64,000 nt of DNA from positions 1-64,000 of the forward strand of contig NZ_JAFBGL010000006.1 of assembly GCF_016811075.1 (NCBI RefSeq), written 5' to 3'. Of the stretch, positions 46,624-51,240 are shown in pieces. A program made the position numbers and the translations under genes. The DNA comes from Oceaniferula flava (GTDB lineage Bacteria; Verrucomicrobiota; Verrucomicrobiia; Verrucomicrobiales; Akkermansiaceae). The notes under the pieces are model-generated. The model saw nothing but the letters and a program-made list of their open reading frames with translations. It was not told where the DNA came from and ran no database searches. Every line of letters starts with the position of its first letter. The stretch's first letter is position 1.

Positions 46624-48126
46624 TTACTGCGCCTTGACCACGGAGATGCGGATGCGGAAGCTTTGGCGACCACGGTGGATTTCCAGCTCGGTGTTCTGAA
46701 CCGAGGCGGAGGCGGCGAGGCGGGTATTAAAATCTTCGACGCTTTGCACGGCCCGGCCATTGATGGCGTGGACCACATCGCCGATGTGCAGGCTGCCGCT
46801 GAGCTTGCTGCCGGCGAGGATCTGCTTGATCACCACGCCGGTGACCCCCAGCGATTGTTCCCTCTCGTTGGCCTCGCGCACCACCAGGCCGATGGTGGTT
46901 AGCACGGTTTTGGGATCGGGCCGTGAGGTGGTTTCGTCTTCCTCATCGCGGAGGATGCGCTGGCTGAAGTTATCCGCCTCACCCACGGTGGCGGTGATGG
47001 TGTGTTTCGCCCCCTCGCGCCAGATTACCATGTTGACCATGGAGCCGACTTCGCTTTGCTGGATCAGGCCGATTAGGCGGCGCATGTCGGCGATTTCGTT
47101 GCCGTCGTAGCTGATGATGATATCGTCCTCGCGCAGGCCGGCTTTTTCCGCCGGGGAATCGGGCACTAGACCGACGATGCGGATGCCATCGCGTCCTTGG
47201 TAGCCAAATTCGCGGCGCGTGTAGGGATCAAGATCTTCGAAGGCCATGCCGAGGAATCCACGGATCGGACGCCCGCGTGCGAGGATGTCCTTCATGGTTT
47301 TCAGCGCGGCATTGGAGGGGATGGCAAAGCTGATCCCTTGGAATCCCGGGTTCTTTTTATCGGTGGAGTAGATCCGTGAGTTAATGCCGACAATTTCGCC
47401 GAGGATGTTCACCAGCGGCCCGCCGGAGTTCCCTGGGTTGATCGCGGCGGAGGTCTGCAGCAGGTCGACGCGGCTATCGGAGAAGGTGCGTTTTTTCGCA
47501 GAGATCTTGCCATCGGTGACGGTTTCACCGAGACCGAAAGGGCTGCCGACGGCAAAGACGATGTTGCCCACCTCGATCTTGGACGAGTCACCGAATTTGA
47601 GTGGCGCGAAGGGGCCTTTGCCATCGATTTTGAGAACGGCGATGTCCACGGCGGGGTCTGAGCCGATGACCTTGGCCGAGTGCACTGTGCCATCGTGCAT
47701 CGTCAGGCGGATTCGCGGGTTTCCTTGAATCACGTGGTGGTTGGTCAGGACGTGGCCTTCCTGGGTGACAATTACTCCGGACCCTTGACCTTGGACCGTG
47801 CGTGGCTGCACCCAGGTGCGCCCCCAGACGTCGCGGAAGCGATCGTGGCGCACGCCGGCGGTATCGATGCTGACCACAGAGGGCACCACAGTTTTCACCA
47901 GTGCGGCGCTTTCCGCATTGATGGCGGCCAGCACCTGGACGTCTTGCAGGTTCAGCGCCGGCTTGTCGCGCAGGGTGAACTGGCCGTCATTGGCGGCGGA
48001 GTCCCGCCCGGTGATGATATCCATCAGGCTGCTGCCGTCCTGCATTTTGCGGACCACAAAGACGGTGAGAAAGGCCATGACAAACACGACCAGTAAGGTG
48101 AGAAAACGGCGAAATCCAGGATTCAT
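46624..48126 (-). CDS. degQ: DegQ/HtrA-type serine protease
   Basis: About 500 residues: membrane or signal anchor (RFLTLLVVFVMAFLTVFVV), trypsin-like domain with catalytic triad His in VLTNHHVIQ, Asp in VDIAVLKIDG and Ser in INPGNSGGPLVN, then two PDZ domains. It degrades or refolds misfolded periplasmic proteins. Start ATG 48126 (MNPGFRRFL) is preferred to the longer frame at 48276. A promoter-like TTGCAA-16-AATAAT lies at 48308-48335 on the minus strand. The adjacent upstream gene encodes the S16-like secreted protein. Confidence 0.93.
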   Translation of the reverse strand: MNPGFRRFLTLLVVFVMAFLTVFVVRKMQDGSSLMDIITGRDSAANDGQFTLRDKPALNLQDVQVLAAINAESAALVKTVVPSVVSIDTAGVRHDRFRDVWGRTWVQPRTVQGQGSGVIVTQEGHVLTNHHVIQGNPRIRLTMHDGTVHSAKVIGSDPAVDIAVLKIDGKGPFAPLKFGDSSKIEVGNIVFAVGSPFGLGETVTDGKISAKKRTFSDSRVDLLQTSAAINPGNSGGPLVNILGEIVGINSRIYSTDKKNPGFQGISFAIPSNAALKTMKDILARGRPIRGFLGMAFEDLDPYTRREFGYQGRDGIRIVGLVPDSPAEKAGLREDDIIISYDGNEIADMRRLIGLIQQSEVGSMVNMVIWREGAKHTITATVGEADNFSQRILRDEEDETTSRPDPKTVLTTIGLVVREANEREQSLGVTGVVIKQILAGSKLSGSLHIGDVVHAINGRAVQSVEDFNTRLAASASVQNTELEIHRGRQSFRIRISVVKAQ

Positions 48127-48307
48127 GGCAAGGGTGGAGGGGTGGGATGGTTCTTGCTGCCAGACTGGCCTCGGCCCGTAAGAGCTCTCGGCATCTCGCG
48201 GGTGTTCGGGCCGACAGCGAACCGCTGACTTGATGGCCACGAACACTTCCAATGAGTGTCGGCATGGGACACCCAACGAGTGGATTCGGAATCACCAAGT
48301 CGCAAGG

Positions 48308-48380: not shown

Positions 48381-50219
48381 TTACGGTTGCTGCTTTCCAG
48401 CGATGGAATCTACTTTTTTGTTCACCTTTGTTTCCAGGGCGATCACGTCTTTTCTGAGGCTCATGATCATCGATTTGATGCGGCTATCGCTGTTATTGGC
48501 ATCGCGGATATTGCGTCTGATCAGGAGGTTCAGGCTGCGGATGTCATTGGCCAGCTCCATGGTATCGTGGTAGAGGCCCTCGTCACGGCGGGTCACCAGA
48601 CGTTCCATGGGATCGAGGACTTTGCGGGCATCGACATGCAGCTTTTTCAGCGTCGCGGTGGACGGGTGATCGAGATCGACTGCATTTAGTAGAGTGTAGG
48701 TCATTTGGTTCACCAGTGGCTGGAGGTGGAAGGCCAGGCCTGTTTCGTTCAGGCGCATTGGGCGTTTGCCACTGCCTTGCAGGAGCAGGATTTTGGCGGA
48801 TAGGTGGTTGGGTGCTAATGCGACAACGTCGGAGAGGCGCTTACGGACGGTGCTGTTCACCGCCAGCTTGACGACCTCGGCTTTATCGCTGAGCTGGTGC
48901 ACGGGTTGGAACAGTTGGCTGGCTTCGGCGATTTTTTCATCGGTTTTTTTTGCCGCAACAGCGAGTGCTTCATCGATGGTGTTGCAGGTATAAATTTCCC
49001 AACGGGTGAAAAAGTCCGGCTCGTCAAACACGAGTAACTGGATGAGCGGGCGGATGGCGCTTTCCGGCACGATCAGGCGACCACGCTTGCTCTTTTCCGA
49101 CCGCAGCGCGTTCAGCACTGTCCAGAAATTCGGCGGCAGGCGGAATTGGCCTTCGCTATCGAGCGAGGCGCAGAGGAAGATGTCATCACGCAGCGGAATG
49201 TTCCGGTGGCAAGCTTCCAGCATCAGCCGGACGGCAGCCATACCGGCTGCACCGTTCTTGTGGGAGTAGGTCAGAGGGCCGAATGTGATGTTTACTTGCG
49301 CGCCAGCCGCCGGGACTTTGTTTGTTTTCAGCGTGTTGAGTGCTTTTTTCAGTCCCGCGGCATCGGTATTCTTCGGGTTGATTTTACTGGCGATTTTGAG
49401 ATCGAAGTAATTGGGGTCTTGGTTCGGCTGGATCTGGATGGTTATCGGGGAAATTCGATAGGTGGTGGTGATTTTGGGTTTTTCCTTAAGCGCATCCTTG
49501 GGGTCGCGAAACACGCTGTGCTGCTCCACGGTGAGAGGCATGTTGATCGTCATCGTGGAAATTGGATAACTCGGTTCCGTGTTTTGCGGTGTGCTGGGGG
49601 GGGCGACTGGGGTGCCGGGTGCTGTGGGAGTGTCGGAATTGGCAGCCGTTGGGGTGGTTGGCGGTGTTGGTGTTTCCGTGGGGGCTGCGGATCCTTGGTA
49701 TTTTGCGAGCGGTGGGATGACGCCTGACCAGTCGGCCTGATCGGCTGCATTAGCGGTTTCCTGCTGCAGCACTTTGGTGGCATCGATGAGGTATTTTGAG
49801 AGCGCATTGGCATCGGTGCCGGCTTGCGGGTTCTCCAGCCAGCGGTGGTAGAAGCGGATCCGGGCTTTTGCTTTGAGCAGGGCGTCGTCGGAGGATGTCG
49901 ACGGTCCGTCATCGCGCAGCAGCGCTTGATTGGCGTGGCGGGCGTGTTGGTTGGCGGGATCGAGTCGCATCGCGAGCGCCAGCATCTGACCGGTGGCGCG
50001 CTGGTTGATGGCTGAGCCGTCGTGCTCGCGTAGTGCGAGCACGGTGAGGTGCTTCGAGAGCTCCTTCATGCTGTCCACCTGCAGCGGAATTTTTTCCAAT
50101 TTGAAGAGTTCCTTGAAGGGTTCTGGGCGCAAGTATTTTGCTGCCTGTGCCTGCTCGATTGAGGTGCAGGCCAGGCTGGCGCAGAGCGCCGAAATCATGG
50201 TGATTTGAAGGATCTTCAT
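48381..50219 (-). CDS. secreted protein with inactive Lon/S16-protease-like domain
   Basis: A 612-residue exported protein; MKILQITMISALCASLAC resembles a lipoprotein signal (LAC), though AQA cleavage at 26 is possible. A Pro/Thr-rich linker (about 165-215) precedes a domain in which GAAGMAAVRLMLEACHRNIP, DDIFLCASLDSEGQF and GRLIVPESAIRPLIQLLVF track the order and spacing of the Lon S16 domain (PSAG, then GEI..GRV, then IP..N). The catalytic Ser is replaced by Ala and the Lys is missing, so it should be proteolytically dead. A helical C-terminus follows (about 420-600). It lies just upstream of degQ on the same strand. The S16 assignment is my inference from pattern. Confidence 0.6.
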   Translation of the reverse strand: MKILQITMISALCASLACTSIEQAQAAKYLRPEPFKELFKLEKIPLQVDSMKELSKHLTVLALREHDGSAINQRATGQMLALAMRLDPANQHARHANQALLRDDGPSTSSDDALLKAKARIRFYHRWLENPQAGTDANALSKYLIDATKVLQQETANAADQADWSGVIPPLAKYQGSAAPTETPTPPTTPTAANSDTPTAPGTPVAPPSTPQNTEPSYPISTMTINMPLTVEQHSVFRDPKDALKEKPKITTTYRISPITIQIQPNQDPNYFDLKIASKINPKNTDAAGLKKALNTLKTNKVPAAGAQVNITFGPLTYSHKNGAAGMAAVRLMLEACHRNIPLRDDIFLCASLDSEGQFRLPPNFWTVLNALRSEKSKRGRLIVPESAIRPLIQLLVFDEPDFFTRWEIYTCNTIDEALAVAAKKTDEKIAEASQLFQPVHQLSDKAEVVKLAVNSTVRKRLSDVVALAPNHLSAKILLLQGSGKRPMRLNETGLAFHLQPLVNQMTYTLLNAVDLDHPSTATLKKLHVDARKVLDPMERLVTRRDEGLYHDTMELANDIRSLNLLIRRNIRDANNSDSRIKSMIMSLRKDVIALETKVNKKVDSIAGKQQP

Positions 50220-50280: not shown

Positions 50281-51240
50281 ATGCGTGCCGAGACGCGCTG
50301 GGTATGGTTTCTGTGGGGCGTGCCAGCCATCGCCCAGCCACTCATCGATTACCTCCGCCATCTGCAAGGGCAGGGGCAGACGCATGTCAGCATCGATGAC
50401 GAAGCTCGCTTGATTCTGCGCGAGTTTTTCATTCGGGCGAAAACCGGGAAACCGAGCCAGCCGGCGGCGAAGCAAGCCGTCCCGGCGTCAGCCAGCGCAC
50501 CCGCGCAGGCACCCGCCCAGCCGGCACCGGCTGCCCAGCCAACCAATGTCGATCTCACCGCGCTCGCCGCCCCGGCGCCGAAGGAGAAGTCCGACCGCAT
50601 CACGGTTGCCGGTGGCAGCCAGGAGGAGAAATTGGCGCAGCTGAAGCATCAGGCCAGCCAGTGGGCCCCCGCCAAGGCGCTCGGCACCCTTCGTCAGACC
50701 ATGGTGTTTTCCCACGGCAGCCCGAATGCCGATATCATGCTGGTCGGCGAGGCTCCGGGTTTTGACGAGGAGCGGATGCAGGAACCTTTCGTCGGCCTGG
50801 CCGGTCAAAAGCTCGATGGCATCCTCGGTGCCATGGGCCTGAGCCGCAGCAGCGTCTATCTCACCAACATCGTCAAATTCCGACCGTCGATGGTGAATCA
50901 AACCACCAACAACCGCAAACCTAGCCTCGAGGAGCGCGCAGCCTGCATGCCGATCTTTCAGGCGGAAATCGACATTGTTGCGCCGAAGGTGATCATCGCC
51001 CTCGGGGGCACAGCGGCTCAGTCGCTGCTCGATAGCACCGAGCCGGTGACCAAACTGCGCGGTGCCTTCCACGAGTTTTCCGGCGTTCCGGTGCGGGTGA
51101 CCTACCATCCATCGTATATCCTGCACAACGAAGCCACCTCCGAGAAGCGCAAGCTCTGGGAAGATATGCTCAGCGTGATGGAGCTGTTGAACATGCCGAT
51201 CAACGACAAACAACGTGGCTATTTCCTGCCGAAATCCTGA
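50281..51240 (+). CDS. family-4-like uracil-DNA glycosylase lacking most Fe-S cysteines
   Basis: A 319-residue protein. The UDG core includes [19 protein letters not shown] (about 154-172), [12 protein letters not shown] and the C-terminal HPSYILHN (276-283), all typical of family-4/5 glycosylases that cut uracil from DNA. Family 4 normally carries a 4Fe-4S cluster held by four Cys. Here there is no Cys before residue 155, the usual VKCRPP Cys is Phe200, and only Cys222 remains, so the cluster appears lost. An Ala/Pro/Gln-rich linker (about 55-100) links an extra N-terminal helix region. Start uncertain. Confidence 0.85.

Follow-up and report, generated by a model that had tools for sequence, protein, structure and literature searches.

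What does an exported-looking protein with the fold of the Lon (S16) proteolytic domain, but without the catalytic dyad of Lon, do upstream of a degQ-type protease gene? The question is raised by the window, a stretch of 64,000 nucleotides from the verrucomicrobium Oceaniferula flava (Akkermansiaceae; contig NZ_JAFBGL010000006.1, positions 1 to 64,000), which codes for such a protein, called P below together with its relatives. An earlier note, made from the letters of the window, had described it as an exported, catalytically dead Lon-like protein and had suggested that it could be an adaptor or inhibitor of periplasmic proteolysis. The observation itself is confirmed: the protein is an exported-looking, dyad-less S16-fold protein encoded upstream of degQ, and the match is beyond chance.

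Domain architecture and fold of P

The AlphaFold2 model of P (window protein plus 31 relatives) has a mean pLDDT of 83.0 and displays, in order, a helical N-terminal domain, a proline-rich linker of low confidence (residues ~178 to 214), an alpha/beta domain, and a helical C-terminal domain (Table 1). The alpha/beta domain superposes on the proteolytic domain of Escherichia coli Lon (3wu6/1rr9) with a VIA Z score of 15.1 and an rmsd of 2.8 over 173 to 174 residues, and a Foldseek comparison of the model with the Lon proteolytic domain returned an E value of 9.9e-7. The S16 assignment of the earlier note, for which it had named structure prediction and Foldseek against E. coli Lon as the check, is thereby borne out. 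The note had located the domain at residues 305 to 395, where order and spacing do follow Lon, but this extent is too narrow, and the real one is ~220 to 426. The S16-like domains of ComM (Z 14.6), BrxL (Z 14.1), and RadA (Z 13.7) were also matched in VIA; since the scores of Lon, ComM, and BrxL are tied (Z within 1), the fold is in itself no evidence of proteolysis and does not establish descent from a protease.

The N terminus of P is signal-peptide-like, in agreement with the exported type that had been read from the sequence. A stretch of 12 residues with a mean hydropathy of at least 1.4 lies near the N terminus in 74 of 78 P rows, a count that is indicative only, a few rows being truncated or over-extended. 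From this N terminus and the crude hydropathy scan of the relatives, we consider that P is probably exported.

Table 1. Features of the P locus in the window (positions of the window; strand relative to the sequence as read)
Feature	Coordinates	Strand	Evidence
degQ-type protease, two PDZ stretches	46624..48126	-	Pfam PF13365 (Trypsin_2) E 1.8e-32 and PDZ
P, signal-peptide-bearing, dyad-less S16-like protein, 612 aa	48381..50219 (including stop codon)	-	ORF, hydropathy, AlphaFold2 model, profile comparison
P, C-terminal helical domain, residues ~427-612	48384..48941	-	AlphaFold2 model; A profile match ends at residue 561
P, S16 (Lon proteolytic) fold, residues ~220-426	48942..49562	-	AlphaFold2, Foldseek, VIA
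P, Val368 codon, catalytic Lys position	49116..49118	-	Alignment
P, Trp366 codon, two residues before the lost Lys	49122..49124	-	Alignment
P, Ala325 codon, catalytic Ser position	49245..49247	-	Alignment
P, N-terminal helical domain, residues ~27-175, homologous to the long-A N-terminal domain	49695..50141	-	Model and profile comparison
P, signal-peptide-like N terminus, residues 1-26, hydrophobic core 6-17, AQA/AKYL	50142..50219	-	Hydropathy scan
Uracil-DNA glycosylase superfamily gene (UDG), divergent; upstream slot boundary	50281..51240	+	PF03167
Stand-alone asparaginase N-terminal domain gene, 160 aa	51265-51747	+	PF00710

The direct sequence evidence that would tie P alone to S16 is weak. 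None of 32 P proteins matched the Lon_C domain of Pfam (PF05362) at an E value of 0.01; phmmer with P against the PDB placed the Methanocaldococcus jannaschii Lon domain 1xhk second in the list at an E value of 0.083, and a P profile recovered the same entry at 0.085, at rank six, beneath chance matches to helical and repeat proteins. For the window protein, family assignment by Pfam, NCBIfam, and PDB sequence searches was tried and gave no match clearly above chance, and a match to COG5_N (E value of 0.92) was discarded as weak.

An intact paralogue connects P to Lon

The relatives in the family sort into two sets, P (41 proteins) and a second set, called A (13 proteins). A profile comparison with hhalign aligned P with A (99.9%, E value of 2.5e-32) over 507 columns, which begin in the N-terminal domain and end at residue 561 of the 612 residues of P; on this alignment, P is a paralogue of A over most of its length. 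A itself is recognizable as Lon-like: it retrieves Lon structures by sequence (best E value of 1.3e-16), the Lon_C domain was matched at an E value of 0.01 in 35 of 35 A proteins, and the A model superposes on the E. coli Lon proteolytic domain with a Z score of 22.1 and an rmsd of 2.0 over 180 residues in the same test as that applied to P. The sequence link from P to Lon thus runs via A. A sub-threshold match to the NCBIfam family SepM_fam_S16 was seen in 29 of the 35 A proteins. At an E value of 0.01, Pfam found no PDZ domain among the 35 A proteins or in the scanned P proteins, and no AAA+ family was matched among 32 P and 35 A proteins; the N-terminal part is helical and common to both. 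No fold could be named for the helical domains of P and A, the structure searches of both models being filled by S16-domain matches. Near the N terminus, 62 of 65 A rows carry a 12-residue stretch with a mean Kyte-Doolittle value of at least 1.4, some of these rows having over-extended starts.

The catalytic positions separate the two sets cleanly. The earlier note had read the catalytic Ser as substituted by Ala and the Lys as lost, and this holds: P has Ala325 and Val368 at the two positions, 43 residues apart, which is the spacing of Lon and also that of Ser305 and Lys348 in the A protein of L152 (Haloferula rosea KCTC 22201, a strain with the order P-A-degQ). Both dyad residues are present in 51 of 51 nonredundant A rows versus 0 of 67 P rows (two of the latter being gapped there). 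These counts were taken after rows more than 97% identical had been collapsed, and before collapsing they were 65 of 65 for A and 0 of 78 for P; the two source collections overlap, sharing 11 identical P rows and 11 identical A rows. A lone Ser is kept in six P rows and a lone Lys in two, never together.

P has, in addition, conserved residues of its own. Trp366 occupies all 65 filled nonredundant P rows versus none of the 51 A rows, and Asn322 occurs in 60 of 67 P rows at a position that is Asp in all 51 A rows; Phe403 and Phe404 are further derived conserved residues. Such positions could be taken as signs of a different catalytic activity provided by other residues. However, inspection by eye (not systematic) of the 45 most conserved columns of P revealed no evident conserved constellation of Ser, Lys, His, Asp, or Glu, and we regard this explanation as highly unlikely.

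The source genome encodes an A-type protein on another contig (L001, 400 aa), with a signal-peptide-like start, a PF05362 match at an E value of 3.8e-16, and an intact dyad. As the only PF05362 matches in this genome are to A and to one protein that we take to be ComM-like, A may be its sole Lon-type peptidase.

Selection and phylogeny

In all 14 close P pairs tried (13 distinct, the pairs not being independent), dN/dS lies between 0.11 and 0.27, which indicates that P is a maintained gene under purifying selection. These values speak against P as a decaying pseudogene of A, an explanation that could otherwise draw on the dyad-less state of all P rows with residues at these positions, on stop codons in the P matches of two genomes (two in G073 and one in G066), and on one locus (L175) where P is split into two frames. 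Moreover, no stops were reported in most other P matches, and P falls into a single clade that has its own conserved positions (e.g., Trp366), so that we give decay hardly any credence.

The tree was built by a quick method, with SH-aLRT as the only support measure, from 35 of the 67 P proteins, 30 of the 51 A proteins, five sister-family proteins, and eight Lon proteins. P emerges as a single clade (SH-aLRT of 100) on a long stem. A is not a single clade (two changes): the short A proteins join the sister-family proteins (SH-aLRT of 90), and the long A proteins lie apart (SH-aLRT of 94). The placement of P versus A is limited in its rooting by the meeting of long branches (P and the Lon outgroup), about which the tree program warned. 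The short A protein of the source genome was considered as an operon partner of P and rejected, as it groups with the proteins of the other family, not with long A, and lies on a different contig. The sister-family S16 proteins of four genomes (L108 to L111 and L102; ~640 to 760 aa) seem by eye to have an intact dyad, and their N-terminal parts resemble neither those of P nor those of long A.

Gene neighborhoods of P and A

In the window, the likely start of degQ is the ATG at 48126 (the ORF tool gave a TTG at 48276), at whose Met two of four congeneric homologue alignments begin. This start lies 254 nt past the stop of P on the same strand; with a gap of this length and a promoter-like match in it (9/12; two overlapping sites in 4.1 kb versus 0.9 expected), cotranscription of P and degQ in the window is unproven. 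The UDG, asparaginase-domain, and peptidase M3 genes have the opposite orientation to P. Asparaginases as a rule also possess a C-terminal domain; the stand-alone N-terminal domain gene recurs at the same locus, with 76 to 81% identity, in L034, L035, L215/L183, L182, and L220, and no match is listed for it in L036, L037, L221, and L224.

We compared 41 P loci, 40 from relatives plus that of the window, with genera distinguished by group codes. The synteny with degQ to which the earlier note had pointed recurs, degQ following P or P-A in 14 of the 41 loci and in five genera. What the note had missed is the intact paralogue: A is the next gene after P on the same strand in 12 of the 41, and in a congener it occupies the slot of P (see below). 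Both A and degQ follow, in the order P-A-degQ, in three loci, and neither follows in 18, some of which are cut by contig ends. With 12 Trypsin_2 places in the source genome, we infer that chance would hardly place P beside the same degQ orthologue repeatedly.

A second collection, gathered from the side of A and overlapping with the first, has 52 Verrucomicrobiales-type loci among the best 80 of 377 (43 with long A and nine with short A). In this collection, P is directly upstream of long A in 36 of 43 loci (including L175, with its split P); the other seven, L182 and L183/L215 among them, have long A without P, and two of the seven lie at contig edges. The gaps between P and A are at most 133 nt in 47 of 48 cases, the remaining one being 164 nt. 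degQ follows A in seven of the 52 A-based loci, and P and degQ are absent from the flanks covered at all nine short-A loci.

Several other arrangements were seen. Upstream of P in 20 P-A loci (L040, L042, L060, L063 to L065, and relatives, from overlapping collections and hence fewer genomes) is a gene for what is presumably a CAP/SCP-like secreted protein. P-A-degQ is also present on a contig (L145) that is attributed, perhaps wrongly, to an Akkermansia muciniphila metagenome-assembled genome. In L049, L050, L051, L058, and L062, P is followed by genes for proteins of ~413 aa and ~247 aa, the latter methyltransferase-like by eye.

These neighborhoods bear on a serious rival explanation, namely, that P has been co-opted as a scaffold for an unrelated role in the envelope (such as binding to a cell-wall, outer-membrane, or ligand target) and that its neighbors are left over from an ancestral P-A-degQ order. 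The 18 loci without an adjoining A or degQ, five of which have the ~413-aa and ~247-aa pair instead, would fit such a function, as would the length of the stem that leads to P and the invariant Trp close to the lost Lys. Against it, A or degQ lies beside P in 23 of the 41 loci, in divergent genera. We consider an unrelated function somewhat unlikely.

One slot with three states, and the distribution of P and A

Within the genus of the window, the same flanks recur, UDG and then the M3 peptidase on one side and degQ on the other. The slot between UDG and degQ holds P in the window, L034, L036, and L037; it holds an intact A with the dyad present in L215 (the contig of G081, which has its A in common with L183) and in L182, for which no genus was assigned; and it is empty in G025, G035, and G068, in none of which a tblastn search with five query proteins (three P and two A) detected a remnant at an E value of 1e-3. 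Contig ends leave P-degQ in G060 and P-UDG in G089. Altogether, seven of the 11 genus genomes searched have P, one has long A, and three have neither; the genome of the window and G044 have P plus a short A elsewhere. The simplest history would be an ancestral P-A-degQ order followed by differing losses. The three congeners with UDG, degQ, and an empty slot indicate that P is not required by DegQ, and in G044 P lies beside UDG with degQ on a separate contig. Both observations weaken the earlier proposal of P as an adaptor or inhibitor of DegQ.

Across the family, P was matched in 69 of 97 genomes. A survey of 288 genomes spread over the phylum gave P matches in 13 genomes, nine of this family and four of a sister family, the latter to A-like proteins. 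A-type proteins scoring above 300 bits were found in 31 of the 97 family genomes, 30 of which also have P. Conversely, A-type proteins above this score are lacking in 39 of the 69 P genomes, including the single-contig assemblies G019, G036, and G082. Canonical Lon above the cut-off was found in none of the 97 family genomes, the same search being positive in eight of 14 control genomes; G088 has broken Lon-like pieces below the cut-off (best E value of 1.6e-44).

This distribution tells against P as an inhibitor of A or DegQ that coassembles with or caps the active protease until stress. The position of a dead paralogue directly upstream of an intact one and the purifying selection on P would suit an inhibitor. 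The survival of P in genomes without A speaks against P as an inhibitor of A only, and the seven long-A loci without P would be unexpected if A needed one; for an inhibitor of DegQ, the empty slots beside degQ stand in the way. Inhibition is in our judgment unlikely.

A proposed role for P

The reading that we favor, tentatively and at somewhat less than even confidence, is that P, descended from or co-ancestral with A, takes part as a noncatalytic partner or adaptor in a module for envelope proteolysis that works without ATP; its export, the common history, and the mechanism are the parts of this reading that we infer. P would have kept the three-part layout of A (helical, S16, helical) and lost the Ser-Lys dyad. 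The S16 scaffold and the helical arms might then bind unfolded or damaged envelope proteins as a noncatalytic subunit or adaptor, and P would support cleavage by the partner protease at hand, which would be A where it is encoded and DegQ otherwise. In the window, the partner would be DegQ, the only A-type protein of the source genome being short, of a separate lineage, and on another contig. The P genomes without A, the loci without either neighbor, and DegQ without P argue against tight coupling.

A more specific mechanism can be conceived, although we think it quite unlikely, in which P and A form a two-subunit ATP-independent periplasmic Lon, with mixed rings of substrate-binding P and cutting A, and in which P works with DegQ after A is lost. 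If true, a pseudo-enzyme would have outlived its enzyme, in a lineage without canonical Lon above the cut-off.

Relationship to known S16 proteins and implications

Neither a dead S16 protein nor an S16 domain outside the cytoplasm is new by itself. In its excerpted text, a 2008 survey of 117 S16 proteins reports two inactive homologues and one PDZ-Lon_C protein (PMC2605481). The excerpts of a study of YlbL from Bacillus subtilis describe a membrane-anchored protein with S16 and PDZ domains and no AAA+ domain, which its authors place likely outside the cytoplasm, so that the premise of the earlier note that Lon-type S16 domains are cytosolic was too strict (PMC6051672). According to the same excerpts, no activity was detected when YlbL had been purified, and the authors weighed the idea of an adaptor, to which their screen did not point; a dead twin goes unmentioned there (PMC6051672). 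YlbL differs from the scanned A and P proteins in its PDZ domain, for which these have no match in Pfam, and from P in its intact dyad. In their predicted layout, an S16 domain without AAA+, with an intact dyad and behind an anchor or signal sequence, the A proteins resemble YlbL (presumably the same protein as DdcP) and SepM of streptococci, an S16 protease without AAA+ that acts outside the cytoplasm; P would have the same layout minus the dyad.

With the proteolytic domain of Lon (MEROPS S16), P has in common the fold of residues 220 to 426 and the order and 43-residue spacing of the catalytic positions; unlike Lon, it has no Ser-Lys dyad, no AAA+ match, and no Lon_C match, and it has a signal-peptide-like start and two helical domains common to A. 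ComM, RadA, and BrxL are cytosolic ATPase proteins acting on DNA and, to our knowledge, are not proteases. Their S16-like domains have the fold of P, which differs from them by its signal-peptide-like N terminus and its frequent intact S16 neighbor. A precedent for an inactive paralogue encoded beside an active one is offered by ClpR of the cyanobacterial and plastid Clp proteases and by other inactive ring subunits; fold and compartment differ from those of P, and coassembly of P with A is hypothetical. Among the matches listed in open-licence literature, a tandem pair of dead and intact S16 proteins beside degQ was not found.

Extracytoplasmic S16 proteases without an AAA+ motor are thus already known, and their working mode is unclear. 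The occurrence of such an S16 protein in tandem with a dead twin, sometimes by degQ, makes the idea of an extracytoplasmic S16 protease with a noncatalytic partner testable, and the slot that holds P, A, or nothing within one genus offers a natural comparison. In these bacteria, P may help or regulate the clean-up of envelope proteins.
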